Source: Oryzias latipes (taxonomy: Eukaryota > Chordata > Actinopteri > Beloniformes > Adrianichthyidae). Taken from it: a stretch of 64,000 nt of DNA. Numbering within the stretch: the stretch's first letter is position 1; every line of letters begins with the position of its first letter. The notes below the pieces were generated by a model. The model was not told the DNA's origin, did no database searches, and worked only from the letters and a program-made list of their open reading frames with translations. The stretch spans positions 9,546,586 through 9,610,585 of the forward strand of contig NC_019860.2 of assembly GCF_002234675.1 (NCBI RefSeq), given 5' to 3'. Of the stretch, positions 21,732 to 64,000 are shown piece after piece. The translations under genes and the position numbers were made by a program.

Positions 21732-21965
21732 CCAGAACCTTTTTCTTTGCATCACGGACCTGGAAGAATGGTTAAGGTTAGATGTAAGTTTGCTGTGAGC
21801 CCTAACCCAACTGCTGTGATTGTGATGTGAAAATGTGTCTCTCCTATATGTGTGTATGAAGACAAAAAACTTAGCATTTCTGCTGTTCTTGAGGTCCAAC
21901 TGTGTTCTGACAAAAAAGCCCTAGAGAGCAACAAAGACTAGAACTGTGACCACCATCACCTCTCG

Positions 21966-22037
21966 GCTGTGATCGTATAGTGGTTAGTACTCTGCGTTGT
22001 GGCCGCAGCAACCCCGGTTCGAATCCGGGTCCAAGCA
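21966..22037 (+). tRNA. tRNA-His(GUG) copy 1, degenerate acceptor stem
   Basis: The anticodon GTG, D and T arms and the B box are intact. The 3' acceptor strand reads TCCAAGC instead of TCACAGC, creating two adjacent mismatches (4-68 and 5-67). It also has a genomic G just before base 1, where all other copies have A. It sits at the array edge next to a deleted unit and is probably a pseudo-tRNA. Confidence 0.8.
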
Positions 22038-23567
22038 GGATGTTCAGAAAATCTGAATGATCGCGTTCTGTAAACTTACAAGATTTTATCATGAACTCCT
22101 TCAAAGCTGTAAAACTTTACATCTTCTTGGAGCAAAAACACATCCAAGATGCCAGAACTTGGCTGTCTGGACTCCACATGCCCAACAGCTTCAGTCTGTT
22201 GGACAACACTTCCACAACTTCAAAATGCTTTGGAACTTCAATTAAACCGTCATTATTTTGGATTCCTTCATGTACGCTAAACAACGAGAATTTCAATGTC
22301 TATTACGTCACGCCTGTCCAAGGGCGGAGTGAGTTATTACTTGTCCCTGACGGCCTACGATGCTGCTGCTGGAGCTGGACGGAAAGGCCATTGTGAGCCC
22401 TAACCCAACTGAAAAAAAGATAGTCTTAAGAGTATTTGTTGTGAAAGTTGTAGGTAAGTCATACAGATTTTCAATGGTTTTAATCCCTGCTATCCTGTTG
22501 ACTGTTCAGGGGCTCTTCATGTGATCAGTGCATGTTCCTTGTGCTGACCGTCCAGGGTTGCGTATTTTTTTTGCTGCAAAGGCCTATGTAACTGAAGGTC
22601 AAAATTGTGCTATAATTAGATTATGGCTTAGGAGCTCCGTACAACAGCATCATCTGTACATCAACTTACAAGAAAATACCTCACAAAACACTTACCATAC
22701 GCACAACAATCATAGTTTCTGCTTTCAACAAGCCTAAAGGGAACTCTCAAACAAACCTGTACTCTCCTTATGAATGCAGCCACTCCTCTCTATGACCATC
22801 CATGGGCATGGATAACCCAAAAAGCTACAGCAACCGTACAGGTGCACATGGCTTTAGCTTTAAACATCTATGGCCTTTAGTCACCAAGTTCCCATCCAAG
22901 TGTAGCAGCAACACACAATTCTGTGCATTTGAATTGATCTCACTGTCAGATTCTTCTACCGGTGAAAATCTGAATAAATAGTTAGCAGCATATGCTACTT
23001 ATGCAGTGCTTTACTACCTTCCTAGGAGGCTTGCTTTAAATTCACAGTCCCATTCCCCAATAGACACACACATTCACACATTGCTAAATATTGGCACCAA
23101 CCTTAAACGACCAGGACAAAAACTGGATTTAATGTCTTGCCCAAGGACCCTTGGACACATGGGAAGGCATGGTGGAAATGAGCCTGTTATTTTTGTCTTC
23201 ATTTTGGTGTCAATTTCAGACTCAGTAAAGAGTTGGTTTTCTTGTCTCACACCTGGGTGTACCAAGATCTCTATGGTGTTTTCTGTATGGTGATTAAAGC
23301 CAGTTTCTACCCACATGCCGCTGTTAGGCTGATACTAAGTAAAGAGAGAATGGAACAATGTTTTTGACTAAAAGGGGCAAAAATATTGTGAATGAAAGAC
23401 CAGAGTGGTCACCTGCTGTGATTGTGATGTGAAAATGTGTCTCTCCTACATGTGTGTACGAAGACAACAAACTTAGCATTTCTACTGTTCTTGAGGTGCA
23501 ACTGTGTTCTGACAAAAAACACCTGGAGAGCAACAAAGACTAGAACTATGACCACCATCCCTTCTCA

Positions 23568-23639
23568 GCTGTGATCGTATAGTGGTTAGTACTCTGCGTT
23601 GTGGCCGTAGCAACCCCGGTTCGAATCCGGGTCACAGCA
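23568..23639 (+). tRNA. tRNA-His(GUG) copy 2
   Basis: A 72-nt gene: acceptor GCTGTGA/TCACAGC with all seven pairs, anticodon loop TTGTGGC with GTG, and T arm CCCGG-TTCGAAT-CCGGG. The A-box region spans 8-19, the B box GGTTCGAATCC spans 51-61, and the discriminator is A. The genome does not encode the extra G at -1, which eukaryotes add to tRNA-His afterwards with Thg1. Base 41 is T (anticodon stem CGTAG), giving a G-U pair shared only with copies 3 and 4. Confidence 0.96.
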
Positions 23640-24393
23640 AGATGTTCAGAAATTCTGAATAATCCATTTCTGTAAACTTACAAGATTTTATCATGAACCC
23701 CTTCAAAGCTGTAAAACTTTACATCTTCTTGGAGCAAAAACACATCCAAGATGCCAGAACTTGGCTGTCTGGACTCCACATGCCCAACAGCTTCAGTCTG
23801 TTGGACAACACTTCCGCAACTTCAAAATGCTTTGGAACTTCAATTAAACTGTGATTATTTGGGGTTCATTCATGTACACTAAACAATGAGAATTTCAATG
23901 TCTATTACGTCACGCCTGTCCAAGGGCGGAGTGAGTTATTACTTGTCCCTGACGGCCCACGATGCTGCTGGAGTTTGACGGAAAGGCCATTGTGAGCCCT
24001 AACCCAACTGAAAAAAAGATAGTCTTAAGAGTATTTGTTGTGAAAGATGTAGGTGAGTCATACAGATTTTCAATGATTTTAATCCCTGCTATCCTGTTGA
24101 CTGTTCAGGGGGTCTTCATGTGATCAGTGCATGTTCCTTGTGCTGACCGTCCAGGGTTGCGTATTTTTTTTGCTGCAAAGGCATATGTAACTGAAGGTCA
24201 AAATTGTGCTATAATTAGAATATGGCTTAGGAGCTCCGTACAACAGCATCATCTGTACATCAACTTACAAGAGAATACTTCACAAAACACTTACCATACG
24301 CACAACAATCATAGCTTCTGCTTTCAACAAGCCTAAAGGGAACTCTCAAACACACCTGAACTCTCCTTATGAATGCAGCCACTCCTCTCTACG

Positions 24394-24487
24394 ACCATCC
24401 ATGGGCATGGATAACCCAAAAAGCCACAGTAACCGTACAGACCATCCATGGGCATGGATAACCCAAAAAGCCACAGCAACCGTACAG
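24394..24487. repeat. 47-bp tandem duplication within one unit
   Basis: The segment 24394-24440 recurs at 24441-24487 with one base change (AGTAACC against AGCAACC). It covers the dyad ATCCATG-GG-CATGGAT. It is unique to this unit and accounts for its greater length. Confidence 0.9.
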
Positions 24488-25212
24488 GTGCACATGGCTT
24501 TAGCTTTAAACATCTATGGCCTTTAGTCACCAAGTTCCCATCCAAGTGTCACAGCAACACACAATTCTGTGCATTTGAATTGATCTCACTGTCTGATTCT
24601 TCTACCGGTGAAAATCTGAATAAATAGTTAGCAGCATATGCTACTTATGCAGTGCTTTACTACCTTCCTAGGAGGCTTGCTTTAAATTCACAGTCCCATT
24701 CCCCAATAGACACACACATTCACACATTGCTAAATATTGGCACCAACCTTAAACGACCAGGACAAAAACTGGATTTAATGTCTTGCCCAAGGACCCTTGG
24801 ACACATGGGAAGGCATGGTGGAAATGAGCCTGTTATTTTTGTCTTCATTTTGGTGTCACTTTCAGACTCAGTAAAGAGTTGGTTTTCTTGTCTCACACCT
24901 TGGTGTACCAAGATCTCTATGGTGTTTTCTGTATGGTGATTAAAGCCAGTTTCTACCCTTATGCCGCTGTTAGGCTGATACTAAGTAAAGAGAGAATGGA
25001 ACAATGTTTTTGACTAAAAGGGGCAAAAGTATTGTGAATGAAAGACCAGAGTGGTCACCTGCTGTGATTGTGATGTGAAAATGTGTCTCTCCTACATGTG
25101 TGTACGAAGACAACAAACTTAGCATTTCTACTGTTCTTGAGGTCCAACTGTGTTCTGACAATAACACCTGGAGAGCAACAAAGACTAGAACTATGACCAC
25201 TATCCCTTCTCA

Positions 25213-25284
25213 GCTGTGATCGTATAGTGGTTAGTACTCTGCGTTGTGGCCGTAGCAACCCCGGTTCGAATCCGGGTCACAGCA
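25213..25284 (+). tRNA. tRNA-His(GUG) copy 3
   Basis: Same as copy 2, including T41. Follows it by 1,645 bp; the spacing is enlarged by a 47-bp tandem duplication in the unit between them. Confidence 0.96.
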
Positions 25285-26831
25285 AGATGTTCAGAAATTC
25301 TGAATAATCCATTTATGTAAACTTAAAAGATTTTATCATGAACTCCTACAAAGCTGTAAAACTTTACATCTTCTTGGAGCAAAAACACATCCAAGATGCC
25401 AGAACTTGGCTGTCTGGACTCCACATGCCCAACAGCTTCAGTCTGTTGGACAACACTTCCGCAACTTCAAAATGCTTTGGAACTTCAGTTAAACTGTGAT
25501 TATTTGGGGTTCATTCATGTACACTAAACAACGAGAATTTCAATGTCTATTACGTCACGCCTGTCCAAGGGCGGAGTGAGTTATTACTTGTCCCTGACGG
25601 CCTACGATGCTGCTGGAGTTGGACGGAAAGGCCATTGTGAGCCCTAACCCAACTGAAAAAAAGATAGTCTTAAGAGTATTTGTTTTGAAACATGTAGGTA
25701 AGTCATACAGATTTTCAATGGTTTTAATCCCTGCTATCCTGTTGACTGTTCAGGGGCTCTTCATGTGATCAGTGCATGTTCCTTGTGCTGACCGTCCAGG
25801 GTTGCGTATTTTTTTTGCTGCAAAGGCCTATGTAACTGAAGGTCAAAATTGTGCTATAATTAGAATATGGCTTAGGAGCTCCGTACAACAGCATCATCTG
25901 TACATCAACTTACAAGAGAATACTTCACAAAACACTTACCATACGCATAACAATCCTAGCTTCTGCTTTCAACAAGCCTAAAGGGAACTCTCAAACACAC
26001 CTGTACTCTCCTTATGAATGCAGCCACTCCTCTCTATGACCATCCATGGGCATGGATAACCCAAAAAGCCACAGCAACCGTACAGGTGCACATGGCTTTA
26101 GCTTTAAACATCTATGGCCTTTAGTCACCAAGTTCCCATCCAAGTGTCACAGCAACACATAATTCTGTGCATTTGAATTGATCTCACTGTCAGATTCTTC
26201 TACCGGTGAAAATCTGAATAAATAGTTAGCAGCATATGCTACTTATGCAGTGCTTTACTACCTTCCTAGGCTTGCTTTAAATTCACAGTCCCATTCCCCA
26301 ATAGACACACACATTCACACATTGCTAAATATTGGCGCCAACCTTAAACGACCAGGACAAAAACAGGATTTAATGTCTTGCCCAAGGACACATGGGAAGG
26401 CATGGTGGAAATGAGCCTGTTATTTTTGTCTTCATTTTGGTGTCACTTTCAGACTCAGTAAAGACAGCGGCAATGATAGAGTCTTCTTCTTGAAGGTTGG
26501 TTTTCTTGTCTCACACCTTGGTGTACCAAGATCTCTATGGTGTTTTCTGTGTGGTTATTAAAACCAGTTTCTACCCACATGCCGCTGTTAGGCTGATACT
26601 AAGTAAAGAGAGAATGGAACAATGTTTTTGACTAAAAGGGGCAAAAGTATTGTGAATGAAAGACCAGAGTGGTCACCTGCTGTGATTGTGAAGTGAAAAT
26701 GTGTCTCTCCTATATGTGTGTATGAAGACAACAAACTTAGCATTTCTACTGTTCTTGAGGTCCAACTGTGTTCTGACAAAAAAGCCCTGGAGAGCAACAA
26801 AGACTAGAACTATGACCACTATCACTTCTCA

Positions 26832-26903
26832 GCTGTGATCGTATAGTGGTTAGTACTCTGCGTTGTGGCCGTAGCAACCCCGGTTCGAATCCGGGTCACA
26901 GCA
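26832..26903 (+). tRNA. tRNA-His(GUG) copy 4
   Basis: Last copy with T41. The unit before it is short (1,619 bp) because of small deletions near 26270 and 26388. Confidence 0.96.
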
Positions 26904-28461
26904 AGATGTTCAGAAATTCTGAATAATCCATTTCTGTAAACTTACAAGATTTTATCATGAACCCCTTCAAAGCTGTAAAACTTTACATCTTCTTGGAGCA
27001 AAAACACATCCAAGATGCCAGAACTTGGCTGTCTGGACTCCACATGCCCAACAGCTTCAGTCTGTTGGACAACACTTCCGCAACTTCAAAATGCTTTGGA
27101 ACTTCAATTAAACTGTGATTATTTGGGGTTCATTCATGTACACTAAACAATGAGAATTTCAATGTCTATTACGTCACGCCTGTCCAAGGGCATAGTGAGT
27201 TATTACTTGTCCCTGACGGCCTACGATGCTGCTGGAGTTGGACGGAAAGGCCATTGTGAGCCGTAACCCAACTGAAAAAAAGATAGTCTTAAGAGTATTT
27301 GTTGTGAAAGATGTAGGTGAGTCATACAGATTTTCAATGATTTTAATCCCTGCTATCCTGTTGACTGTTCAGGGGCTGTTCATGTGATCAGTGCATTTTC
27401 CTTGTGCTGACCGTCCAGGGTTGCGTATTTTTTTTGCTGCAAAGGCCTATGTAACTGAAGGTCAAAATTGTGCTATAATTAGAATATGGCTTAGGAGCTC
27501 CGTACAACAGCATCATCTGTACATCAACTTACAAGAGAATACTTCACAAAACACTTACCATACGCATAACAATCTTAGCTTCTGCTTTCAACAAGCCTAA
27601 AGGGAACTCTCAAACACACCTGTACTCTCCTTATGAATGCAGCCACTCCTCTCTACAACCATCCATGGGCATGGATAACCCAAAAAGCCACAGCAACCGT
27701 ACAGGTGCACATGGCTTTAGCTTTAAACATCTATGGCCTTTAGTCACCAAGTTCCCATCCAAGTGTCACAGCAACACACAATTCTGTGCATTTGAATTGA
27801 TCTCACTGTCAGATTCTTCTACCGGTGAAAATCAGAATAAATAGTTAGCAGCATATGCTACTTATGCAGTGCTTTACTACCTTCCTAGGAGGCTTGCTTT
27901 AAATTCACAGTCCCATTCCCCAATAGACACACACATTCACACATTGCTAAATATTGGCGCCAACCTTAAACGACCAGGACAAAAACTGGATTTAATGTCT
28001 TGCCCAAGGACCCTTGGACACATGGGAAGGCATGGTGGAAATGAGCCTGTTGTTTTTGTCTTCATTTTGGTGTCACTTTCAGACTCAGTAAAGACAGCGG
28101 CAATGATAGAGTCTTCTTCTTGAAGGTTGGTTTTCTTGTCTCACACCTTGGTGTACCAAGATCTCTATGGTGTTTTCTGTATGGTGATTAAAGCCAGTTT
28201 CTACCCACATGCCGCTGTTAGGCTGATACTAAGTAAAGAGAGAATGGAACAATGTTTTTGACTAAAAGGGGCAAAAGTGTTGTGAATGAAAGACCAGAGT
28301 GGTCACCTGCTGTGATTGTGATGTGAAAATGTGTCTCTCCTATATGTGTGTACGAAGACAACAAACTTAGCATTTCTACTGTTCTTGAGGTCCAACTGTG
28401 TTCTGACAAAAAAGCCCTGGAGAGCAACAAAGAGTAGAACTATGACCACCATCCCTTCTCA

Positions 28462-28533
28462 GCTGTGATCGTATAGTGGTTAGTACTCTGCGTTGTGGCC
28501 GCAGCAACCCCGGTTCGAATCCGGGTCACAGCA
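28462..28533 (+). tRNA. tRNA-His(GUG) copy 5
   Basis: First copy after the edge with the fully paired CTGCG/CGCAG anticodon stem, taken here as the canonical array sequence. Confidence 0.97.
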
Positions 28534-30091
28534 AGATGTTCAGAAATTCTGAATAATCCCTTTCTGTAAACTTACAAGATTTTATCATGAACCCCTTCAA
28601 AGCTGTAAAACTTTACATCTTCTTGGAGCAAAAACACATCCAAGATGCCAGAACTTGGCTGTCTGGACTCCACATGCCCAACAGCTTCAGACTGTTGGAC
28701 AACACTTCCGCAACTTCAAAATGCTTTGGAACTTCAATTAAACTGTGATTATTTGGGGTTCATTCATGTACACTAAACAATGAGAATTTCAATGTCTATT
28801 ACATCACGCCTGTCCAAGGGCGGAGTGAGTTATTACTTGTCCCTGACGGCCTACGATGCTGCTGGAGTTGGACGGAAAGGCCATTGTGAGCCCTAACCCA
28901 ACTGAAAAAAAGATAGTCTTAAGAGTATTTGTTGTGAAAGATGTGGGTGAGTCATACAGATTTTCAATGATTTTAATCCCTGCTATCCTGTTGACTGTTC
29001 AGGGGCTGTTCATGTGATCAGTGCATGTTCCTTGTGCTGACCGTCCAGGGTTGCGTATTTTTTTTCCTGACAAGGCCTATGTAACTGAAGGTCTAAATTG
29101 TGCTTTAATTAGAATATGGCTTAGGAGCTCCGTACAACAGCATCATCTGTACATCAACTTACAAGAGAATACTTCACAAAACACTTACCATACGCATAAC
29201 AATCCTAGCTTCTGCTTTCAACAAGCCTAAAGGGAACTCTCAAACACACCTGTACTCTCCTTATGAATGCAGCCACTCCTCTCTACGACCATCCATGGGC
29301 ATGGATAACCCAAAAAGCCACAGTAACCGTACAGGTGCACATGGCTTTAGCTTTAAACATCTATGGCCTTTAGTCACCAAGTTCCCATCCAAGTGTCACA
29401 GCAACACACAATTCTGTGCATTTGAATTGATCTCACTGTCAGATTCTTCTACCGGTGAAAATCTGAATAAATAGTTAGCAGCAGATGCTACTTATGCAGT
29501 GCTTTACTACCTTCCTAGGAGGCTTGCTTTAAATTCACAGTCCCATTCCCCAATAGACACACACATTCACACATTGCTAAATATTGGCGCCAACCTTAAA
29601 CGACCAGGACAAAAACAGGATTTAATGACTTGCCCAAGGACCCTTGGACAGATGGGAAGGCATGGTGGAAATGAGCCTGTTGTTTTTGTCTTTATTTTGG
29701 TGACACTTTCAGACTCAGTAAAGACAGCTGTTGTGATAGAGTCTTCTTCTTGAAGGTTGGTTTTTTTGTCTTACACCTTGGTGTACCAAGATCTCTATGG
29801 TGTTTTCTGTATGGTGATTAAAGCCAGTTTCTACCCACATGCCGCTGTTAGGCTGATACTAAGTAAAGAGAGAATGGAACAATGTTTTTGACTAAAAGGG
29901 ACAAAAGTATTGTGAATGAAAGACCAGAGTGGTCACCTGCTGTGATTGTGATGTGAAAATGTGTCTCTCCTATATGTGTGTATGAAGACAACAAACTTAG
30001 CATTTCTACTGTTCTTGAGGTCCAACTGTGTTCTGACAAAAAAGCCCTGGAGAGCAACAAAGAGTAGAACTATGACCACCATCCCTTCTCA

Positions 30092-30163
30092 GCTGTGATC
30101 GTGTAGTGGTTAGTACTCTGCGTTGTGGCCGCAGCAACCCCGGTTCGAATCCGGGTCACAGCA
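30092..30163 (+). tRNA. tRNA-His(GUG) copy 6, D-stem variant
   Basis: Canonical except for G at base 12 (GTGTAGTGG), which changes a D-stem A-U pair to G-U and also lies in the A-box region. Likely still folds; promoter strength could differ. Confidence 0.95.
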
Positions 30164-31721
30164 AGATGTTCAGAAATTCTGAATAATCCCTTTCTGTAAA
30201 CTTACAAGATTTTATCATGAACCCCTTCAAAGCTGTAAAACTTTACATCTTCTTGGAGCAAAAACACATCCAAGATGCCAGAACTTGGCTGTCTGGACTC
30301 CACATGCCCAACAGCTTCAGTCTGTTGGACAACACTTCTGCAACTTCAAAATGCTTTGGAACTTCAATTAAACTGTGATTATTTGGGGTTCATTCATGTA
30401 CACTAAACAATGAGAATTTCAATGTCTATTATGTCACGCCTGTCCAAGGGCCGAGTGAGTTATTACTTGTCCCTGACGGCCTACGATGCTGCTGGAGTTG
30501 GACGGAAAGGCCATTGTGAGCCCTAACCCAACTGAAAAAAAGATAGTCTTAAGAGTATTTGTTGTGAAAGATGTAGGTGAGTCCTACAGATTTTCAATGA
30601 TTTTAATCCCTGCTATCCTGTTGACTGTTCAGGGGCTGTTCATGTGATCAGTGCATGTTCCTTGTGCTGACCGTCCAGGGTTGCGTATTTTTTTTGCTGC
30701 AAAGGCTTATGTAACTGAAGGTCAAAATTGTGCTATAATTAGAATATGGCTTAGGAGCTCCGAACAACAGCATCATCTGTACATCAACTTACAAGAGAAT
30801 ACTTCACAAAACACTTACCATACGCATAACAATCATAGCTTCTGCTTTCAACAAGCCTAAAGGGAACTCTCAAACACACCTGTACTCTCCTTATGAATGC
30901 AGCCACTCCTCTCTACGACCATCCATGGGCATGGATAACTCAAAAAGCCACAGTAACCGTACAGGTGCACATGGCTTTAGCTTTAAACATCTATGGCTTT
31001 TAGTCACCAAGTTCCCATCCAAGTGTCACAGCAACACACAATTCTGTGCATTTGAATTGATCTCACTGTCAGATTCTTCTACCGGTGAAAATCTGAATAA
31101 ATAGTTAGCAGCATATGCTACTTATGCAGTGCTTTACTACCTTCCTAGGAGGCTTGCTTTAAATTCACAGTCCCATTCCCCAATAGACACACACATTCAC
31201 ACATTGCTAAATATTGGCGCCAACCTTAAACGACCAGGACAAAAACTGGATTTAATGTCTTGCCCAAGGACCCTTGGACACATGGGAAGGCATGGTGGAA
31301 ATGAGCCTATTATTTTTGTCTTCATTTTGGTGTCACTTTCAGACTCAGTAAAGACAGCTGTTGTGATAGAGTCTTCTTCTTGAAGGTTGGTTTTCTTGTC
31401 TCACACCTTGGTGTACATAGATCTCTATGGTGTTTTTTGTGTGGTTATTGAAGCCAATTTCTACCCACATGCCGCTGTTAGGCTGATACTAAGTAAAGAG
31501 AGAATGGAACAATGTTTTTGACTAAAAGGGACAAAAGTATTGTGAATGAAAGACCAGAGTGGTCACCTGCTGTGATTGTGATGTGAAAATGTGTCTCTCC
31601 TATATGTGTGTATGAAGACAACAAACTTAGCATTTCTACTGTTCTTGAGGTCCAACTGTGTTCTGACAAAAAAGCCCTGGAGAGCAACAAAGAGTAGAAC
31701 TATGACCACCATCCCTTCTCA

Positions 31722-33422: not shown

Positions 33423-33468
33423 AGATGTTCAGAAATTCTGAATAATCCCTTTCTGTAAACTTACAAGA

Positions 33469-35415: not shown

Positions 35416-38377
35416 TATCGAATTACATAAATGCCAAAAATTGAAAGGGCGTAAAGACAACTAAGCGGGCGTATTTAGAAACTGAGTGAGTGAACCTTAA
35501 AACTGTGATGGCGCAATTCTAACCAAGCGACCCCGTATTTTACAACTGAACGGCTGAAATCCTAACTGAGCAGTAATCCTGCTCGGTCAGTTCTCTTTTG
35601 CGCCCTCACCTGGATTTACGCTCAGTGTTAAGGGGGCGTTTTTGTCACTTGGGGGCAGGAACATTTCTGGTTGATCTGATTGGCTGAAATTTGCATGCCA
35701 AGCAGCGGGGCGGGACTTTCATTTTGGGGCTTTAATAGAAAAGGAACGGCGGCTGTAACGTGGATTAAAAGCATTAAAACTGTAACAAATGCAGTGGATT
35801 TCACATGAGAAAAACTTACACCACAAAAAAACCCGCTGCACTTTCTTACCTTAGTTTTGGGTCGTTGGTTAATGTTTTAATCCACGTTACATCCACGTTT
35901 TTTTTTTCTATGATTGCCTCTAACAGGGGGGGACAAACAAGTTTGACACAAAGAGCTGACATTTCTAACTGTGATATTTAATGAGTCACAACACACACTG
36001 ACCTGCCAGACAAACACACAATTAAAGCCATGTTATGTGCCATAACCCCCTCCTCTCATTACAACAGCGCCGTTTCAGTTTTGAGTGTTTTTCTGTATTT
36101 AACGTTAACACACATACCGGTGAAACATGCATGCTGGTGTGTGTTTGAAAAAGGCAGCGAGCGCAAAACTGAGTTGGTTGTGATCTATTTTTTCAGTCAT
36201 CAATCAGCATTTCTAATCCATCAAAGTCCTCATCTTCTGCATCTGGAACAGCTGGACTACATCTCTATCAGACATACCGGCTTCCCTTTCCTCATCAGAG
36301 TCCATCTCTTTGCTATGCGGCTCCTAAGAACAGTGAAAGCAGACGCGTCAGGCCAAGTTTAAGTCCTGCAGTCCCAAAGTAATTCGCCGGCGCTGCGTCC
36401 CGGTAAGGGGGGAGGATGGACAGCTTTTCACGGTCATCTGCTGATAGCAGCGCTGAGCCTCGAGTCGATCTTCCAACGCAGGCCTTTTCTTATCCGCGGA
36501 AACTCAGCAGCTGCTGCGTCTTCTTGTCTTGTCAGAGTTGGTTTTCCAGCGTCCTCACTTCCGAACCATAGATTCATTATTTTAAATTCTCTGGCAGCTG
36601 AGGTTCGATAAGTTAGAAAGATCTTCAAGGTTCGGACTTCTTGCTTCTTCCAATAACTCTTCTGATCAACGTTCAAATATGTCAGCAAGTATCTAAATCC
36701 TTTTGTATCAACACAGAGAGTGAACCACAAATGCATTTCTGAAGAAAAAAGATCGTTTTTTTGCCTTTTAATCAAAATTGTTCGCTTTAAGCTGTGAATG
36801 CAGACATGCAGCAGCCGGCTGCCAAGGGACCGTCAACTAAGTGCAACCTCTGTGAAACACCACTGTGTAAAAATCAATAATCTTACAAAAAAATCATAAA
36901 ACTATTATAAAGCATATTCTTGTTACAATGCATATTTTGTAGGAAAGTCCATCTTTATTTTACCTTGTTTCATATACTTTTTCAAATTTTAATAGATATG
37001 AATCATGACTAAAGTTATCAGTAACTTGACATGACCTTATTGTCATACTAAAATAAAGAATGTCAATAGTTCACTTTATTTATTTATAGGAATTTTTCAT
37101 ATTTACAAATGGATCAGATTTGGTCAAAAACCCTGAATAGCTCTGAAGGTGCCAAAAATTTTTTTTGCATAATCTTTATTTTAGTAGGAAAATAAGGTCA
37201 TGATTAGTCAGTACAGGAGGTTTGGTGACAGAAGTTTTAGTATCTTCAGAGCTATTGAGTATTTATGTTATGATTCATATCTCTATTAAATTTTAAGAAC
37301 TATAAGAAATAAAATAGAGGTTGACTTTCTAACAAAATTTAGTATAATAAATAATAATGTAGCATGACTATGCTGACGAGTCTTCATTACCAGTCCATAT
37401 AAATATAGACATTTATTCGCTTTTTAAAAGTTCACTGATTTTTACAGAATGCTGTTTCACAGAGGTTGCACTTTGTTGACGGTCCCTTGGCAGCCGGCTC
37501 GCTGCTCTGTTTGCATTCACAGCTTGAAACGAACAATTCTGATTAAAAGGCAATAAAAACAAACTTTTTTCTTTAAAAATGCTTTTGTAGTTCACTCTCT
37601 GTGTTAATACAAAATGAGTGACATACTTGCTGACACATTTGAACGTTGATCAGAAGAGTTATTGAAGCAGGAAGTCAGAATCTGTGAAGATCTAATTTAA
37701 CCGAACCACAGCTGCTCTATTCCCGTGTTCCTCCGCGTAGCTGATAGCTTGCAGTTTAAACTATGCCTCATAATCGTGTCTCTTTGCATTTCCAGGGTTT
37801 CCAAAACGAAGTAGTTCTGCATTATGCTCATATCTGCTCCTTTGTACTATGGGGGGGGGGGTCTTCTTTCACGTCCTCTCCTCTCTCCGTACCGTCATCA
37901 TGCTGTTCTGCTGTTCTCTCCTCGATCCTCTTTGCTGAAGTCACACAATAACACATTAGGGCCGCTCTGTAAATTTTGGAGAAAATGTAAGACTTTCACC
38001 TTATGGTTGTGAAAGTAGTGAATATAGAAAATATGATAAAAGGCAGAGAGCTGCATGCAGCTCAAGAGCCGCCTGTTAAACCCCCCCCCCCCCGCACTGA
38101 AAAATGAAGGTCCCGCCCCTCTGCCTCGCCGATAAGCCATGCGAATTTCAGCCAATCAGATCAACCAGAAAGGTTCCTGCCCCAAAAGTGACAAAAACGC
38201 CCCCTTAACACTGAGCGTAAATCCACATGAGCGCGCAAAAAGGAATTGACCGCGCAAGATCACTTCTCAGTTAGAATTGCGCCTGCGCGGTTTTAAGGTT
38301 CACTCACTCAGTTCCTAAATACGCCCGCTTAGTTGTCTTTACGCCCTTTCACTTATTGGCAGAAACGTAATTCCATA
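35416..38377. mobile_element. Foldback-type DNA element, copy A, 2.96 kb
   Basis: Flanked by the 5-bp duplication CTAAC (35411-35415 and 38378-38382); the uninterrupted unit has a single CTAAC. The outer ends pair over about 290 bp (35416-35735 with 38098-38377), starting TATCGAATTAC against TATGGAATTAC. Inner segments pair too: about 36620-36880 with 37420-37720, and 37030-37058 with 37174-37203. Nearly the whole element is thus an imperfect inverted repeat centred near 37,116, with unpaired stretches in both arms. Reading frames of 110 and 113 codons have no known domain. The superfamily is not clear; a 5-bp site with long inverted repeats argues against typical hAT or piggyBac. Confidence 0.85.
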
Positions 38378-39575: not shown

Positions 39576-39647
39576 GCTGTGATCGTATAGTGGTTAGTAC
39601 TCTGCGTTGTGGCTGCAGCAACCCCGGTTCGAATCCGGGTCACAGCA
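39576..39647 (+). tRNA. tRNA-His(GUG) copy 10, anticodon-stem variant
   Basis: Base 39 is T (GGCTGCAG), so the stem pair next to the anticodon loop becomes G-U. The same change occurs only in copy 22. The units around both also share a one-base shorter A run near 38800 and 61327. Confidence 0.96.
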
Positions 39648-52685: not shown

Positions 52686-54243
52686 AGATGTTCAAAAATT
52701 CTGAATAATCCATTTCTGTAAACTTACAAGATTTTATCATGAACCCCTTCAAAGCTGTAAAACTTTACATCTTCTTGGAGCAAAAACACATCCAAGATGC
52801 CAGAACTTGGCTGTCTGGACTCCACATGCCCAACAGCTTCAGTCTGTTGGACAACACTTCCGCAACTTCAAAATGCTTTGGAACTTCAATTAAACTGTGA
52901 TTATTTGGGGTTCATTCATGTACACTAAACAATGAGAATTTCAATGTCTATTATGTCACGCCTGTCCAAGGGCCGAGTGAGTTATTACTTGTCCCTGACG
53001 GCCTACGATGCTGCTGGAGTTGGACGGAAAGGCCATTGTGAGCCCTAACCCAACTGAAAAAAAGATAGTCTGAAGAGTATTTGTTGTGAAAGATGTAGGT
53101 GAGTCATACAGATTTTCAATGATTTTAATCCCTGCTATCCTGTTGACTGTTCAGGGGCTGTTCATGTGATCAGTGCATGTTCCTTGTGCTGACCGTCCAG
53201 GGTTGCGTATTTTTTTTCCTGACAAGGCCTATGTAACTGAAGGTCAAAATTGTGCTATAATTAGAATATGGCTTAGGAGCTCCGTACAACAGCATCATCT
53301 GTACATCAACTTACAAGAGAATACTTCACAAAACACTTACCATACGCATAACAATCATAGCTTCTGCTTTCAACAAGCCTAAAGGGAACTCTCAAACACA
53401 CCTGTACTCTCCTTATGAATGCAGCCACTCCTCTCTACGACCATCCATGGGCATGGATAACTCAAAAAGCCACAGTAACCGTACAGGTGCACATGGCTTT
53501 AGCTTTAAACATCTATGGCTTTTAGTCACCAAGTTCCCATCCAAGTGTCACAGCAACACACAATTCTGTGCATTTGAATTGATCTCACTGTCAGATTCTT
53601 CTACCGGTGAAAATCTGAATAAATAGTTAGCAGCATATGCTACTTATGCAGTGCTTTACTACCTTCCTAGGAGGCTTGCTTTAAATTCACAGTCCCATTC
53701 CCCAATAGACACACACATTCACACATTGCTAAATATTGGCGCCAACCTTAAACGACCAGGACAAAAACTGGATTTAATGTCTTGCCCAAGGACCCTTGGA
53801 CACATGGGAAGGCATGGTGGAAATGAGCCTATTATTTTTGTCTTCATTTTGGTGTCACTTTCAGACTCAGTAAAGACAGCTGTTGTGATAGAGTCTTCTT
53901 CTTGAAGGTTGGTTTTCTTGTCTCACACCTTGGTGTACATAGATCTCTATGGTGTTTTTTGTGTGGTTATTGAAGCCAATTTCTACCCACATGCCGCTGT
54001 TAGGCTGATACTAAGTAAAGAGAGAATGGAACAATGTTTTTGACTAAAAGGGACAAAAGTATTGTGAATGAAAGACCAGAGTGGTCACCTGCTGTGATTG
54101 TGATGTGAAAATGTGTCTCTCCTATATGTGTGTATGAAGACAACAAACTTAGCATTTCTACTGTTCTTGAGGTCCAACTGTGTTCTGACAAAAAAGCCCT
54201 GGAGAGCAACAAAGAGTAGAACTATGACCACCATCCCTTCTCA

Positions 54244-54315
54244 GCTGTGATCGTATAGTGGTTAGTACTCTGCGTTGTGGCCGCAGCAACCCCGGTTCGA
54301 ATCCGGGTCACAGCA
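54244..54315 (+). tRNA. tRNA-His(GUG) copy 19
   Basis: Canonical; partner of copy 14. Confidence 0.97.
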
Positions 54316-55872
54316 AGATGTTCAGAAATTCTGAATAATCCCTTTCTGTAAACTTACAAGATTTTATCATGAACCCCTTCAAAGCTGTAAAACTTTACAT
54401 CTTCTTGGAGCAAAAACACATCCAAGATGCCAGAACTTGGCTGTCTGGACTCCACATGCCCAACAGCTTCAGTCTGTTGGACAACACTTCCGCAACTTCA
54501 AAATGCTTTGGAACTTCAATTAAACTGTGATTATTTGGGGTTCATTCATGTACACTAAACAATGAGATTTTCAATGTCTATTACGTCACGCCTGTCCAAG
54601 GGCGGAGTGAGTTATTACTCGTCCCTGACGGCCCACGATGCTGCTGGAGTTGGACGGAAAGGCCATTGTGAGCCGTAACCCAACTGAAAAAAAGATAGTC
54701 TTAAGAGTATTTGTTGAGAAAGATGTAGGTAAGTCATACAGATTTTCAATGGTTTTAATCCCTGCTATCCTGTTGACTGTTCAGGGGCTGTTCATGTGAT
54801 CAGTGCATGTTCCTTGTGCTGACCGTCCAGGGTTGCGTATTTTTTTTCCTGACAAGGCCTATGTAACTGAAGGTCTAAATTGTGCTTTAATTAGAATATG
54901 GCTTAGGAGCTCCGTACAACAGCATCATCTGTACATCAACTTACAAGAGAATACCTCACAAAACACTTACCATACGCACAACAATCATAGCTTCTGCTTT
55001 CAACAAGCCTAAAGGGAACTCTCAAACACACCGGTACTCTCCTTATGAATGCAGCCACTCCTCTCTACGACCATCCATGGGCATGATAACCCAAAAAGCC
55101 ACAGCAACCGTACAGGTGCACATGGCTTTAGCTTTAAACATCTATGGCCTTCAGTCACCAAGTTCCCATCCAAGTGTCACAGGAACACACAATTCTGTGC
55201 ATTTGAATTGATCTCACTGTCAGATTCTTCTACCGGTGAAAATCTGAATAAATAGTTAGCACCATATGCTACTTATGCAGTGCTTTACTACCTTCATAGA
55301 AGGCTTGCTTTAAATTCACAGTCCCATTCCCCAATAGACACACACATTGACACATTGCTAAATATTGGCGCCAACCTTAAACGACCAGGACAAAAACAGG
55401 ATTTAATGACTTGCCCAAGGACCCTTGGACAGATGGGAAGGCATGGTGGAAATGAGCCTGTTGTTTTTGTCTTCATTTTGGTGTCACTTTCAGACTCAGT
55501 AAAAACATCGGCAATGATAGAGTCTCCTTCTTGAAGGTTGGTTTTTTTGTCTCACACCTTGGTGTACCAAGATCTCTATGGTGTTTTCTGTATGGTGATT
55601 AAAGCCAGTTTCTACCCACATGCCGCTGTTAGGCTGATACTAAGTAAAGAGAGAATGGAACAATGTTTTTGACTAAAAGGGACAAAAGTATTGTGAATGA
55701 AAGACCAGAGTGGTCACCTGCTGTGATTGTGATGTGAAAATGTGTCTCTCCTATATGTGTGTATGAAGACAACAAACTTAGCATTTCTACTGTTCTTGAG
55801 GTCCAACTGTGTTCTGACAAAAAAGCCCTGGAGAGCAACAAAGAGTAGAACTATGACCACCATCCCTTCTCA

Positions 55873-55944
55873 GCTGTGATCGTATAGTGGTTAGTACTCT
55901 GCGTTGTGGCCGCAGCAACCCCGGTTCGAATCCGGGTCACAGCA
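55873..55944 (+). tRNA. tRNA-His(GUG) copy 20
   Basis: Canonical. The second foldback element starts 364 bp downstream, at the same unit position as after copy 9. Confidence 0.97.
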
Positions 55945-56308
55945 AGATGTTCAGAAATTCTGAATAATCCCTTTCTGTAAACTTACAAGATTTTATCATG
56001 AACCCCTTCAAAGCTGTAAAACTTTACATCTTCTTGGAGCAAAAACACATCCAAGATGCCAGAACTTGGCTGTCTGGACTCCACATGCCCAACAGCTTCA
56101 GTCTGTTGGACAACACTTCCGCAACTTCAAAATGCTTTGGAACTTCAATTAAACTGTGATTATTTGGGGTTCATTCATGTACACTAAACAATGAGAATTT
56201 CAATGTCTATTACGTCACGCCTGTCCAAGGGCGGAGTGAGTTATTACTTGTCCCTGACGGCCTACGATGCTGCTGGAGTTGGACGGAAAGGCCATTGTGA
56301 GCCCTAAC

Positions 56309-59275
56309 TATCGAATTACATAAATGCCAAAAATTGAAAGGGCGTAAAGACAACTAAGCGGGCGTATTTAGAAACTGAGTGAGTGAACCTTAAAACTGTG
56401 ATGGCGCAATTCTAACCAAGCGACCCCGTATTTTACAACTGAACGGCTGAAATCCTAACTGAGCAGTAATCCTGCTCGGTCAGTTCTCTTTTGCGCCCTC
56501 ACCTGGATTTACGCTCAGTGTTAAGGGGGCGTTTTTGTCACTTGGGGGCAGGAACATTTCTGGTTGATCTGATTGGCTGAAATTTGCATGCCAAGCAGCG
56601 GGGCGGGACTTTCATTTTGGGGCTTTAATAGAAAAGGAACGGCGGCTGTAACGTGGATTAAAAGCATTAAAACTGTAACAAATGCAGTGGATTTCACATG
56701 AGAAAAACTTACACCACAAAAAAACCCGCTGCACTTTCTTACCTTAGTTTTGGGTCGTTGGTTAATGTTTTAATCCACGTTACATCCACGTTTTTTTTTT
56801 CTATGATTGCCTCTAACAGGGGGGGACAAACAAGTTTGACACAAAGAGCTGACATTTCTAACTGTGATATTTAATGAGTCACAACACACACTGACCTGCC
56901 AGACAAACACACAATTAAAGCCATGTTATGTGCCATAACCCCCTCCTCTCATTACAACAGCGCCGTTTCAGTTTTGAGTGTTTTTCTGTATTTAACGTTA
57001 ACACACATACCGGTGAAACATGCATGCTGGTGTGTGTTTGAAAAAGGCAGCGAGCGCAAAACTGAGTTGGTTGTGATCTATTTTTTCAGTCATCAATCAG
57101 CATTTCTAATCCATCAAAGTCCTCATCTTCTGCATCTGGAACAGCTGGACTACATCTCTATCAGACATACCGGCTTCCCTTTCCTCATCAGAGTCCATCT
57201 CTTTGCTATGCGGCTCCTAAGAACAGTGAAACCAGACGCGTCAGGCCAAGTTTAAGTCCTGCAGTCCCAAAGTAATTCGCCGGCGCTGCGTCCCGGTAAG
57301 GGGGGAGGATGGACAGCTTTTCACGGTCATCTGCTGATAGCAGCGCTGAGCCTCGAGTCGATCTTCCAACGCAGGCCTTTTCTTATCCGCGGAAACTCAG
57401 CAGCTGCTGCGTCTTCTTGTCTTGTCAGAGTTGGTTTTCCAGCGTCCTCACTTCCGAACCATAGATTCATTATTTTAAATTCTCTGGCAGCTGAGGTTCG
57501 ATAAGTTAGAAAGATCTTCAAGGTTCGGACTTCTTGCTTCTTCCAATAACTCTTCTGATCAACGTTCAAATATGTCAGCAAGTATCTAAATCCTTTTGTA
57601 TCAACACAGAGAGTGAACCACAAATGCATTTCTGAAGAAAAAAGATCGTTTTTTTGCCTTTTAATCAAAATTGTTCGCTTTAAGCTGTGAATGCAGACAT
57701 GCAGCAGCCGGCTGCCAAGGGACCGTCAACTAAGTGCAACCTCTGTGAAACACCACTGTGTAAAAATCAATAATCTTACAAAAAAATCATAAAACTATTA
57801 TAAAGCATATTCTTGTTACAATGCATATTTTGTAGGAAAGTCCATCTTTATTTTACCTTGTTTCATATACTTTTTCAAATTTTAATAGATATGAATCATG
57901 ACTAAAGTTATCAGTAACTTGACATGACCTTATTGTCATACTAAAATAAAGAATGTCAATAGTTCACTTTATTTATTTATAGGAATTTTTCATATTTACA
58001 AATGGATCAGATTTGGTCAAAAACCCTGAATAGCTCTGAAGGTGCCAAAAAATTTTTTTGCATAATCTTTATTTTAGTAGGAAAATAAGGTCATGATTAG
58101 TCAGTACAGGAGGTTTGGTGACAGAAGTTTTAGTATCTTCAGAGCTATTGAGTATTTATGTTATGATTCATATCTCTATTAAATTTTAAGAACTATAAGA
58201 AATAAAATAGAGGTTGACTTTCTAACAAAATTTAGTATAATAAATAATAATGTAGCATGACTATGCTGACGAGTCTTCATTACCAGTCCATATAAATATA
58301 GACATTTATTCGCTTTTTAAAAGTTCACTGATTTTTACAGAATGCTGTTTCACAGAGGTTGCACTTTGTTGACGGTCCCTTGGCAGCCGGCTCGCTGCTC
58401 TGTTTGCATTCACAGCTTGAAACGAACAATTCTGATTAAAAGGCAATAAAAACAAACTTTTTTCTTTAAAAATGCTTTTGTAGTTCACTCTCTGTGTTAA
58501 TACAAAATGAGTGACATACTTGCTGACACATTTGAACGTTGATCAGAAGAGTTATTGAAGCAGGAAGTCAGAATCTGTGAAGATCTAATTTAACCGAACC
58601 ACAGCTGCTCTATTCCCGTGTTCCTCCGCGTAGCTGATAGCTTGCAGTTTAAACTATGCCTCATAATCGTGTCTCTTTGCATTTCCAGGGTTTCCAAAAC
58701 GAAGTAGTTCTGCATTATGCTCATATCTGCTCCTTTGTACTATGGGGGGGGGGGTCTTCTTTCACGTCCTCTCCTCTCTCCGTACCGTCATCATGCTGTT
58801 CTGCTGTTCTCTCCTCGATCCTCTTTGCTGAAGTCACACAATAACACATTAGGGCCGCTCTGTAAATTTTGGAGAAAATGTAAGACTTTCACCTTATGGT
58901 TGTGAAAGTAGTGAATATAGAAAATATGATAAAAGGCAGAGAGCTGCATGCAGCTCAAGAGCCGCCTGTTAAACCCCCCCCCCCCCCCCCCGCACTGAAA
59001 AATGAAGGTCCCGCCCCTCTGCCTCGCCGATAAGCCATGCGAATTTCAGCCAATCAGATCAACCAGAAAGGTTCCTGCCCCAAAAGTGACAAAAACGCCC
59101 CCTTAACACTGAGCGTAAATCCACATGAGCGCGCAAAAAGGAATTGACCGCGCAAGATCACTTCTCAGTTAGAATTGCGCCTGCGCGGTTTTAAGGTTCA
59201 CTCACTCAGTTCCTAAATACGCCCGCTTAGTTGTCTTTACGCCCTTTCACTTATTGGCAGAAACGTAATTCCATA
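56309..59275. mobile_element. Foldback-type DNA element, copy B, 2.97 kb
   Basis: Same site and same CTAAC duplication (56304-56308 and 59276-59280) as copy A. By eye the two differ by a C run (13 against 18 C near 38081 and 58975), a G/C change near 36336/57229 and an A/T shift near 37158/58051. It was therefore duplicated as part of the array. Confidence 0.85.
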
Positions 59276-60474
59276 CTAACCCAACTGAAAAAAAGATAGT
59301 CTTAAGAGTATTTGTTGTGAAAGATGTAGGTGAGTCCTACAGATTTTCAATGATTTTAATCCCTGCTATCCTGTTGACTGTTCAGGGGCTGTTCATGTGA
59401 TCAGTGCATGTTCCTTGTGCTGACCGTCCAGGGTTGCGTATTTTTTTTGCTGCAAAGGCCTATGTAACTGAAGGTCAAAATTGTGCTATAATTAGAATAT
59501 GGCTTAGGAGCTCCGTACAACAGCATCATCTGTACATCAACTTACAAGAGAATACTTCACAAAACACTTACCATACGCATAACAATCATAGCTTCTGCTT
59601 TCAACAAGCCTAAAGGGAACTCTCAAACACACCTGTACTCTCCTTATGAATGCAGCCACTCCTCTCTACGACCATCCATGGGCATGGATAACCCAAAAAG
59701 CCACAGTAACCGTACAGGTGCACATGGCTTTAGCTTTAAACATCTATGGCCTTTAGTCACCAAGTTCCCATCCAAGTGTCACAGCAACACACAATTCTGT
59801 GCATTTGAATTGATCTCACTGTCAGATTCTTCTACCGGTGAAAATCTGAATAAATAGTTAGCAGCATATGCTACTTATGCAGTGCTTTACTACCTTCCTA
59901 GGAGGCTTGCTTTAAATTCACAGTCCCATTCCCCAATAGACACACACATTCACACATTGCTAAATATTGGCGCCAACCTTAAACGACCAGGACAAAAACT
60001 GGATTTAATGTCTTGCCCAAGGACCCTTGGACACATGGGAAGGCATGGTGGAAATGAGCCTATTATTTTTGTCTTCATTTTGGTGTCACTTTCAGACTCA
60101 GTAAAGACAGCGGCAATGATAGAGTCTTCTTCTTGAAGGTTGGTTTTCTTGTCTCACACCTTGGTGTACATAGATCTCTATGGTGTTTTCTGTGTGGTTA
60201 TTGAAGCCAATTTCTACCCACATGCCGCTGTTAGGCTGATACTAAGTAAAGAGAGAATGGAACAATGTTTTTGACTAAAAGGGGCAAAAGTATTGTGAAT
60301 GAAAGACCAGAGTGGTCACCTGCTGTGATTGTGATGTGAAAATGTGTCTCTCTTATATGTGTGTATGAAGACAACAAACTTAGCATTTCTACTGTTCTTG
60401 AGGTCCAACTGTGTTCTGACAAAAAAGCCCTGGAGAGCAACAAAGAGTAGAACTATGACCACCATCCCTTCTCA

Positions 60475-60546
60475 GCTGTGATCGTATAGTGGTTAGTACT
60501 CTGCGTTGTGGCCGCAGCAACCCCGGTTCGAATCCGGGTCACAGCA
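60475..60546 (+). tRNA. tRNA-His(GUG) copy 21
   Basis: Canonical; first copy after the second foldback element. It lacks the T39 seen in copy 10 at the matching place after the first element. Confidence 0.97.
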
Positions 60547-62103
60547 AGATGTTCAGAAATTCTGAATAATCCCTTTCTGTAAACTTACAAGATTTTATCA
60601 TGAACCCCTTCAAAGCTGTAAAACTTTACATCTTCTTGGAGCAAAAACACATCCAAGATGCCAGAACTTGGCTGTCTGGACTCCACATGCCCAACAGCTT
60701 CAGTCTGTTGGACAACACTTCCGCAACTTCAAAATGCTTTGGAACTTCAATTAAACTGTGATTATTTGGGGTTCATTCATGTACACTAAACAATGAGAAT
60801 TTCAATGTCTATTACGTCACGCCTGTCCAAGGGCGGAGTGAGTTATTACTTGTCCCTGACGGCCTACGATGCTGCTGGAGTTGGACGGAAAGGCCATTGT
60901 GAGCCCTAACCCAACTGAAAAAAAGATAGTCTTAAGAGTATTTGTTGTGAAAGATGTGGGTGAGTCATACAGATTTTCAATGATTTTAATCCCTGCTATC
61001 ATGTTGACTGTTCAGGGGCTGTTCATGTGATCAGTGCATGTTCCTTGTGCTGACCGTCCAGGGTTGCGTATTTTTTTTGCTGCAAAGGCCTATGTAACTG
61101 AAGGTCAAAATTGTGCTATAATTAGAATATGGCTTAGGAGCTCCGTACAACAGCATCATCTGTACATCAACTTACAAGAGAATACTTCACAAAACACTTA
61201 CCATACGCATAACAATCATAGCTTCTGCTTTCAACAAGCCTAAAGGGAACTCTCAAACACACCTGTACTCTCCTTATGAATGCAGCCACTCCTCTCTACG
61301 ACCATCCATGGGCATGGATAACCCAAAAGCCACAGCAACCGTACAGGTGCACATGGCTTTAGCTTTAAACATCTATGGCCTTTAGTCACCAAGTTCCCAT
61401 CCAAGTGTCACAGCAACACACAATTCTGTGCATTTGAATTGATCTCACTGTCAGATTCTTCTACCGGTGAAAATCTGAATAAATAGTTAGCAGCATATGC
61501 TACTTATGCAGTGCTTTACTACCTTCCTAGGAGGCTTGCTTTAAATTCACAGTCCCATTCCCCAATAGACACACACATTCACACATTGCTAAATATTGGC
61601 GCCAACCTTAAACGACCAGGACAAAAACAGGATTTAATGTCTTGCCCAAGGACCCTTGGACACATGGGAAGGCATGGTGGAAATGAGCCTATTATTTTTG
61701 TCTTCATTTTGGTGTCACTTTCAGACTCAGTAAAGACAGCTGTTGTGATAGAGTCTTCTTCTTGAAGGTTGGTTTTCTTGTCTCACACCTTGGTGTACAT
61801 AGATCTCTATGGTGTTTTCTGTGTGGTTATTGAAGCCAGTTTCTACCCACATGCCGCTGTTAGGCTGATACTAAGTAAAGAGAGAATGGAACAATGTTTT
61901 TGACTAAAAGGGGCAAAAGTATTGTGAATGAAAGACCAGAGTGGTCACCTGCTGTGATTGTGATGTGAAAATGTGTCTCTCCTATATGTGTGTATGAAGA
62001 CAACAAACTTAGCATTTCTACTGTTCTTGAGGTCCAACTGTGTTCTGACAAAAAAGCCCTGGAGAGCAACAAAGAGTAGAACTATGACCACCATCCCTTC
62101 TCA

Positions 62104-62175
62104 GCTGTGATCGTATAGTGGTTAGTACTCTGCGTTGTGGCTGCAGCAACCCCGGTTCGAATCCGGGTCACAGCA
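62104..62175 (+). tRNA. tRNA-His(GUG) copy 22, anticodon-stem variant
   Basis: Carries T39 like copy 10, marking the two as lineage partners. Confidence 0.96.
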
Positions 62176-63733
62176 AGATGTTCAGAAATTCTGAATAATC
62201 CCTTTCTGTAAACTTACAAGATTTTATCATGAACCCCTTCAAAGCTGTAAAACTTTACATCTTCTTGGAGCAAAAACACATCCAAGATGCCAGAACTTGG
62301 CTGTCTGGACTCCACATGCCCAACAGCTTCAGTCTGTTGGACAACACTTCCGCAACTTCAAAATGCTTTGGAACTTCAATTAAACTGTGATTATTTGGGG
62401 TTCATTCATGTACACTAAACAATGAGAATTTCAATGTCTATTACGTCACGCCTGTCCAAGGGCGGAGTGAGTTATTACTTGTCCCTGACGGCCTACGATG
62501 CTGCTGGAGTTGGACGGAAAGGCCATTGTGAGCCCTAACCCAACTGAAAAAAAGATAGTCTTAAGAGTATTTGTTGTGAAAGATGTAGGTGAGTCATACA
62601 GATTTTCAATGATTTTAATCCCTGCTATCATGTTGACTGTTCAGGGGCTGTTCATGTGATCAGTGCATGTTCCTTGTGCTGACCGTCCAGGGTTGCGTAT
62701 TTTTTTTGCTGCAAAGGCCTATGTAACTGAAGGTCAAAATTGTGCTATAATTAGAATATGGCTTAGGAGCTCCGTACAACAGCATCATCTGTACATCAAC
62801 TTACAAGAGAATACTTCACAAAACACTTACCATACGCATAACAATCATAGCTTCTGCTTTCAACAAGCCTAAAGGGAACTCTCAAACACACCTGTACTCT
62901 CCTTATGAATGCAGCCACTCCTCTCTACGACCATCCATGGGCATGGATAACCCAAAAAGCCACAGCAACCGTACAGGTGCACATGGCTTTAGCTTTAAAC
63001 ATCTATGGCCTTTAGTCACCAAGTTCCCATCCAAGTGTCACAGCAACACACAATTCTGTGCATTTGAATTGATCTCACTGTCAGATTCTTCTACCGGTGA
63101 AAATCTGAATAAATAGTTAGCAGCATATGCTACTTATGCAGTGCTTTACTACCTTCCTAGGAGGCTTGCTTTAAATTCACAGTCCCATTCCCCAATAGAC
63201 ACACACATTCACACATTGCTAAATATTGGCGCCAACCTTAAACGACCAGGACAAAAACAGGATTTAATGTCTTGCCCAAGGACCCTTGGACACATGGGAA
63301 GGCATGGTGGAAATGAGCCTATTATTTTTGTCTTCATTTTGGTGTCACTTTCAGACTCAGTAAAGACAGCTGTTGTGATAGAGTCTTCTTCTTGAAGGTT
63401 GGTTTTCTTGTCTCACACCTTGGTGTACATAGATCTCTATGGTGTTTTCTGTGTGGTTATTGAAGCCAGTTTCTACCCACATGCCGCTGTTAGGCTGATA
63501 CTAAGTAAAGAGAGAATGGAACAATGTTTTTGACTAAAAGGGACAAAAGTATTGTGAATGAAAGACCAGAGTGGTCACCTGCTGTGATTGTGATGTGAAA
63601 ATGTGTCTCTCCTATATGTGTGTATGAAGACAACAAACTTAGCATTTCTACTGTTCTTGAGGTCCAACTGTGTTCTGACAAAAAAGCCCTGGAGAGCAAC
63701 AAAGAGTAGAACTATGACCACCATCCCTTCTCA

Positions 63734-63805
63734 GCTGTGATCGTATAGTGGTTAGTACTCTGCGTTGTGGCCGCAGCAACCCCGGTTCGAATCCGGGTCA
63801 CAGCA
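63734..63805 (+). tRNA. tRNA-His(GUG) copy 23
   Basis: Canonical; last copy in the window, in a unit cut by the right edge. Confidence 0.97.
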
Positions 63806-64000
63806 AGATGTTCAGAAATTCTGAATAATCCCTTTCTGTAAACTTACAAGATTTTATCATGAACCCCTTCAAAGCTGTAAAACTTTACATCTTCTTGGAG
63901 CAAAAACACATCCAAGATGCCAGAACTTGGCTGTCTGGACTCCACATGCCCAACAGCTTCAGTCTGTTGGACAACACTTCCGCAACTTCAAAATGCTTTG

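Follow-up and report, generated by a model that had tools for sequence, protein, structure and literature searches.

A 64,000-nucleotide window of the genome of the medaka Oryzias latipes (contig NC_019860.2, hereafter C2, positions 9546586–9610585; assembly of 734 Mb in 25 contigs) contains 23 units of a longer tandem array, each bearing one gene for tRNA-His with the anticodon GUG. The tRNA-His genes clustered on C2 and the single tRNA-His genes of other contigs form two classes separated by one compensated base pair of the acceptor stem, and the clustered class is further distinguished by a common upstream element. We give about an even chance to the reading that the array is an intact RNA polymerase III gene family for a second tRNA-His(GUG) isodecoder (U3:A70), maintained by unequal exchange and belonging to an oocyte/early-embryo class of tRNA genes.

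The two tRNA-His classes and the upstream element

Every one of the 62 C2 copies compared has U3:A70 as its acceptor pair 3:70 (region A, which includes the array, contributed 42, cluster B 7, cluster C 8, and the loci at 8.95/7.49 Mb 5), and all four single tRNA-His genes, located on contigs C3, C4, C6, and C7, have C3:G70. U3:A70 was also present in two cluster D copies that were read and in four others 100% identical over 72 bases. C3:G70 is the state of human tRNA-His as well. Isodecoders of the array chromosome and of the single genes can therefore be distinguished directly by tRNA sequencing, since they differ in a compensated pair.

The sequence GGAGAGCAACAAAGACTAGAAC or a near variant of it occupies positions -43 to -22 of the clustered tRNA-His copies. 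A genome-wide search yielded 73 places with no more than two mismatches, all within C2:9.387–10.052 Mb; the other 11 matches had three mismatches, lay on other contigs, and were close in number to the 10 obtained with a reversed pattern as control. Coordinates compared by hand placed 68 of the 73 matches before a detected tRNA-His gene. The element precedes 66 of the 68 C2 genes recognized by the core pattern described below and 2 of the 8 more diverged C2 copies, and was not found before any of the four single genes, three of which carry AGTAGCTC immediately 5' of the tRNA. The five copies at 8.95/7.49 Mb fail at the two-mismatch limit, but their consensus has the same base at 17 of the 25 positions from -36 to -12, a score reached by 0–1 of 100,000 shuffles for a stretch picked after the alignment had been viewed. 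Between region A and cluster C the upstream block is 0.87–0.89 identical and ranks among the best-conserved stretches outside the tRNA.

The remaining five of the 73 matches, in cluster D (C2:10.0454–10.0501 Mb), have no core match (up to three mismatches) downstream, and the element may outlast its tRNA-His gene there. Another stretch, at unit positions 211–240 (e.g., window 28672–28701), lies 3' of the tRNA, is 0.84–0.85 identical between region A and clusters C/D, and contains a predicted hairpin around CCAACAG...CTGTTGG.

Organization, soundness, and turnover of the array

ARAGORN, applied to the whole window, identified 23 tRNA-His(GUG) genes between positions 21966 and 63805, all on the forward strand, and no further tRNA type. 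The Rfam model RF00005 (Infernal), whose gathering score is 29, gave the same 23 genes 49.9–60.8 bits. Their starts are 1629–1631 bp apart in most units and 1602, 1645, and 1619 bp apart at the left edge, while two units are long (4596 and 4602 bp) due to a transposon inside each. A unit of about 1630 bp consists of the 72-bp tRNA gene and a 1558-bp spacer; the G+C content of the array is about 42%. With 23 same-strand genes of one kind at a mostly 1.63-kb spacing, chance was rejected as the origin of this arrangement. The following features were located in the window.

21808–64000, forward strand: tRNA-His(GUG) array, window part with 23 tRNA genes (ARAGORN, Rfam, BLAST), running on to C2:9631357
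21966–22037, forward strand: tRNA-His of unit 1, acceptor stem damaged, 49.9 bits
23568–26903, forward strand: units 2–4, tRNA-His starting at 23568, 25213, and 26832, with T41 (G29:U41 wobble)
28419–28440, forward strand: upstream element before the tRNA-His of unit 5, one example; found at two or fewer mismatches only in the C2 clusters
28462–30091, forward strand: unit 5, the reference unit, tRNA-His at 28462–28533 followed by the 1558-bp spacer
30092–30163, forward strand: tRNA-His of unit 6, variant G12 (G12:U23 wobble)
35416–38377, forward strand: 2962-bp DNA transposon in unit 9; ends inverted, target duplication of 5 bp (CTAAC)
39576–39647, forward strand: tRNA-His of unit 10, variant T39, which recurs in unit 22 at 62104
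56309–59275, forward strand: second copy of the insertion, 2967 bp, at the same place in unit 20

An earlier note on this DNA, made from the sequence alone, had described 23 tRNA-His(GUG) genes of the same orientation, each in a 1.63-kb unit, with more beyond the window, and both statements hold; it had set the start of the array at 21794, and BLAST comparison of the units puts the left limit of their homology at 21808. In the assembly, 12 more contiguous units follow, and the array comprises 35 units (C2:9568551–9631357, 62.8 kb, without N), ending about 21 kb past the window. Seven looser tRNA-His copies lie after it, the last starting at 9667530, with a 1000-base run of N among them (9661279–9662278). 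These 42 genes, designated region A, were the only tRNA genes detected by ARAGORN in C2:9486586–9680585.

Genome-wide copies were counted with a 52-base tRNA-His core pattern allowing up to three mismatches. There were 72 matches, 68 on C2 and one each on contigs C3, C4, C6, and C7, and none for the reversed control; the latter four genes are called single since their contigs hold no other core match, and roughly 600 bases of surrounding sequence were read for each. The C2 matches comprise 42 in region A, 6 in cluster B, 6 in cluster C, 12 in cluster D, and 2 at 10.091 and 10.095 Mb. ARAGORN added eight more diverged C2 copies (at 9427880, 10016092, and 10017262, and five at 8.95/7.49 Mb), bringing the contig to at least 76 tRNA-His genes versus four elsewhere. 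Cluster B has seven copies on the minus strand (C2:9387744–9436066), cluster C has eight from C2:10015513 onward at a spacing of about 585 bp, and cluster D lies at approximately 10.042–10.052 Mb. Confinement of the core matches to C2 and four other places led us to reject a dispersed tRNA-derived element.

In units 2–34 of the 35, the tRNA-His genes have paired cloverleaf stems, the GUG anticodon, the B-box sequence, A73, and no encoded CCA, and broken stem pairs occur in units 1 and 35 alone. Within the window the earlier note's count of 22 sound copies out of 23 was reproduced, copy 1 alone being damaged. RF00005 gives the sound copies 56–61 bits, and a pseudogene array was rejected; the note's concern that most copies might be scored as pseudogenes was not realized with ARAGORN and Infernal in place of tRNAscan-SE. 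The variants T41, T39, and G12, which it had also listed, were found in three, two, and one window copies, respectively. Units 2–34 contain these three tRNA variants, and each turns a Watson-Crick pair into G:U; changes that keep pairing in this way would make up 15% of random single substitutions, as against 3 of 3 observed. One exact tRNA sequence is common to 27 of the 35 units. A comparison of five units of region A with eight of cluster C gave 96.5% identity for the tRNA and only 37%–53% for the next 50 nt, which suggests that selection on the tRNA is clearer between clusters than inside the array. Within cluster C the tRNA (94.1%) is no better conserved than its flanks (81%–95%).

Apart from the transposon, units 7, 8, 14, 15, and 19 are exactly identical, as are units 26 and 30, units 33 and 34, and a four-unit block (units 11–14 and 16–19). 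Blocks without a single difference may also stem from duplication in the assembly. The highest mean divergence was found at the two ends, with 54.9 and 40.4 mismatches in units 1 and 35 and 20.2–37.8 in the other 33. Over 4.6 kb, insert included, the two transposon-interrupted units show 99.57% identity and are therefore most simply explained by one insertion that was then copied along with its unit. Identical units, the copied insertion, and diverged ends together point to unequal exchange, and homogenized units, copied blocks, and diverged ends are marks of concerted evolution, a subject raised in the earlier note.

The transposon begins with TATSGAATTAC. Its first 585 bases have at least 52 related pieces on many contigs (best 40 of 977 candidates scored), so it is a dispersed transposon, and it is taken as non-autonomous because its two longest open reading frames (ORFs) had no Pfam match. 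Dada elements have 6–7 bp target duplications, lack terminal inverted repeats, and sit inside RNA genes (PMC3706591); the insert, with inverted ends, a 5-bp duplication, and a location in the spacer, was rejected as a Dada element. Parts of the unit 5 spacer match other contigs at about 73%–83%. In the reference unit, the one ORF compared with Pfam had no match, and a protein-coding gene in the unit was rejected on this basis.

T-run terminators, other tRNA arrays, and neighboring features

A nearby terminator was defined as TTTT within 35 nt after the tRNA, a cut-off set after the data were seen. The first TTTT is at +47 throughout the 35 array units and also in the 7 looser copies. Two cluster B copies have it at 28 and 47, and five lack it within 120 bases; three cluster C copies have it at 45, 60, and 63, and five lack it; and of the five copies at 8.95/7.49 Mb, three have it at 42, 67, and 88 and two lack it. 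The four single tRNA-His genes have TTTT at +3, +21, +26, and +32. The terminator at +47 may still function.

Single-isoacceptor arrays are not peculiar to tRNA-His in this genome. Of the 81 places matched by a tRNA-Cys pattern, 78 form one tRNA-Cys(GCA) array (C13:13609157–13671927, with a spacing of about 0.75 kb in most cases), and C8, C12, and C19 have one match each. Six array copies that were read have a T arm (A53:U61 by our reading, which alters the B box) unlike that of the three single Cys genes. On C2 itself, 10 tRNA matches are placed at multiples of about 2.26 kb at 9.058–9.081 Mb, and the two that were read are tRNA-Arg(TCG). The earlier note was thus right about a single-isoacceptor fish array with marks of concerted evolution; such arrays are not unusual in this genome, as the 78-copy Cys array and the 2.26-kb-spaced matches show. 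Across C2:9032386–9106134, where tRNA matches are in part spaced at multiples of about 2.26 kb, the copies read are tRNA-Arg(TCG), have upstream sequences that are alike, and lack TTTT in the 35 nt after the gene.

TTTT occurs within 11 bases in the single Cys genes of C8, C12, and C19 (3/3) and in the Ala genes of C7, C10, and C24 (3/3), and the Thr gene of C18 has none in 100 bases. None was found in the 93–100 bases read after the array Cys genes of C13 (0/6) and the Thr copies of C15 (0/2), and none within 35 bases of the Arg(TCG) copies of C2 (0/8). Counted by family, TTTT in the first 35 bases is a feature of 0 of 4 array families (His, Cys, Arg, and Thr) and of 10 of 11 single genes (Fisher P 0.004), in a small, post-hoc contrast for which the isolation of the Ala, C18 Thr, and Cys genes was judged from 300–370 bases, the C15 Thr group was counted as an array from three matches, and several Arg copies are scattered along C2 and not in tandem. 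The cluster B copy with TTTT at +28 is an exception. As a tentative and rather doubtful generalization, medaka may possess two sets of tRNA genes side by side. The first would comprise single genes followed by T-run terminators of the ordinary kind, and the second germline genes borne on arrays, each array with one isoacceptor, its own isodecoder, its own upstream element replacing the usual flanks, and an unusual transcription end. The tRNA-His array would be a member of the second set.

Other RNA genes were located in the same assembly. The best-scored 5S ribosomal RNA genes are mostly on C3; C16 holds some, and a weaker one is at 12.39 Mb of C2 (best 47 of 16,807 candidates); a 5S array lies at C3:1639950–1721985, and further copies are on C16 (C16:7713806). 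The best-scored U6 genes are on C13 and C11, with three weaker ones on C2 at 13–15 Mb (best 48 of 66,741 candidates). The left flank of the array in the window contains a C2H2 zinc-finger ORF (8293–9630, minus strand), a reverse-transcriptase ORF (15935–17191, minus strand), and a protein-kinase ORF (17242–18249, plus strand). A histone 3' untranslated region stem-loop was found at 20382–20426 on the plus strand (39.7 bits, above the Rfam gathering score); no histone gene was recognized by eye at this stem-loop, near 20.4 kb, in three frames of 19701–20430.

Proposed function and comparison with known systems

In zebrafish, repetitive regions encode the isodecoders of the egg and early embryo, scattered genes encode the ones that rise later (PMC11417395), and a maternal role of the chromosome 4 tRNA genes has been put as a hypothesis (PMC11075544). 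The medaka array is proposed as an oocyte/early-embryo source of tRNA-His because its isodecoder split fits this pattern, the clustered isodecoder (62 C2 copies) being unlike that of the scattered genes (4). Unequal crossing-over and block duplication would expand the family and keep its copies alike, with the end units diverging. The clustered U3:A70 class would be on mainly in oocytes, aided by its own upstream element, and would stock the egg with tRNA-His, and the single C3:G70 genes would supply somatic cells.

Several observations weigh against this proposal, and some of them favor its main rival, a largely silent, satellite-like tRNA repeat amplified by unequal exchange, in which the copies would be intact because they are young and homogenized and not because they are used. 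We regard this rival as a serious possibility, though a minority one. TTTT within 35 nt is missing in 61 of 62 C2 copies, as against +3 to +32 in the single genes, and the lack of a nearby T4 terminator could mean poor expression of the array. The tRNA has 3 variable sites versus a mean of 5.1 per 72-bp spacer window, and 24% of windows are as low, so within the array the tRNA is not clearly less diverse than the spacer, and its diversity does not demonstrate purifying selection. Damaged tRNA-His copies are present in clusters B, C, and D. The spacer stretches common to other contigs would also suit a silent repeat. The upstream element is missing (more than three mismatches) before the core matches at 10.091 and 10.095 Mb and is altered in the cluster C copy at 10016092, and it is not the only conserved part of the spacer: between regions A and C, positions 301–315 are 0.97 identical and positions 211–240 are 0.84–0.85 identical. 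Zebrafish isodecoders present throughout development have copies in both contexts (PMC11417395), and C2 is perhaps not a full equivalent of the zebrafish chromosome 4 block, which also holds 5S and small nuclear RNA genes, since most of the 5S and U6 candidates with the best scores, among those scored, lie off C2. A silent repeat is, however, harder to reconcile with the conservation of the tRNA and the upstream block between clusters whose remaining flanks have diverged, with the base pairs retained in the three interior variants, and with 27 of 35 copies of one exact tRNA sequence, though homogenization alone could produce the last.

Two further explanations were considered. Generic gene dosage, in which every copy serves every tissue and total tRNA-His is raised, agrees with the excess of C2 copies over single genes; the split between them in isodecoder and upstream sequence suggests separate regulation instead, and the similar layout of tRNA-Cys also speaks against it, making this explanation improbable. 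The dosage view of the earlier note is accordingly incomplete, since the C2 genes differ from the four single genes in isodecoder and upstream sequence and mostly lack a nearby T-run terminator. A chromatin boundary, as proposed for the human 1q23.3 tRNA repeat, draws on the ability of tRNA genes to serve as barriers (PMC4041453). It seems very improbable here: a consensus scan of one unit gave no CTCF-like match above chance (best with three mismatches, equaled by 58 of 60 shuffles), whereby a CTCF site in the unit was rejected, and the array has about 42% G+C versus a GC-rich human unit.

The isodecoder split makes the question of an egg-specific tRNA set testable in a second fish, along with the question of whether upstream sequence or genomic context controls that set. 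The array also qualifies a 2010 survey in which medaka tRNA genes were described as predominantly isolated (PMC2888827); its rule counted only genes spaced by less than 1000 nt as clustered, and a 1.63-kb unit would be missed under it. No description of this array was found, among the matches listed, in titles and abstract openings on medaka or fish tRNA arrays and isodecoders.

The architecture of tRNA arrays is already known from zebrafish, human, and Entamoeba, and the interesting part of the medaka case is the split in isodecoder and upstream sequence. Xenopus laevis has a tandem multi-tRNA unit, and tandem tRNA units have been tied to oocyte expression. Entamoeba, a protist, similarly has tandem tRNA arrays of largely uniform units; its arrays comprise 25 unit types with up to five tRNA genes each, and short tandem repeats separate the array genes in E. 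histolytica and E. dispar (PMC2652664). The human 1q23.3 repeat is likewise a homogeneous tandem repeat bearing tRNA genes; it varies in copy number, and its GC-rich unit of 7.3 kb contains genes for tRNA-Leu, Gly, Glu, and Asp and is bound by CTCF (PMC4041453), whereas the medaka unit of 1.63 kb has one tRNA-His gene, about 42% G+C, and no CTCF-like site by consensus scan. Compared with the repetitive tRNA regions of zebrafish, mainly on the long arm of chromosome 4, the medaka array differs in having one isoacceptor in 1.63-kb units, with the best-scored 5S and U6 genes, among the candidates scored, mostly on other contigs. It resembles the zebrafish regions in the many clustered copies, in zinc-finger coding sequence nearby, as on chromosome 4, and in the difference between clustered and scattered isodecoders.

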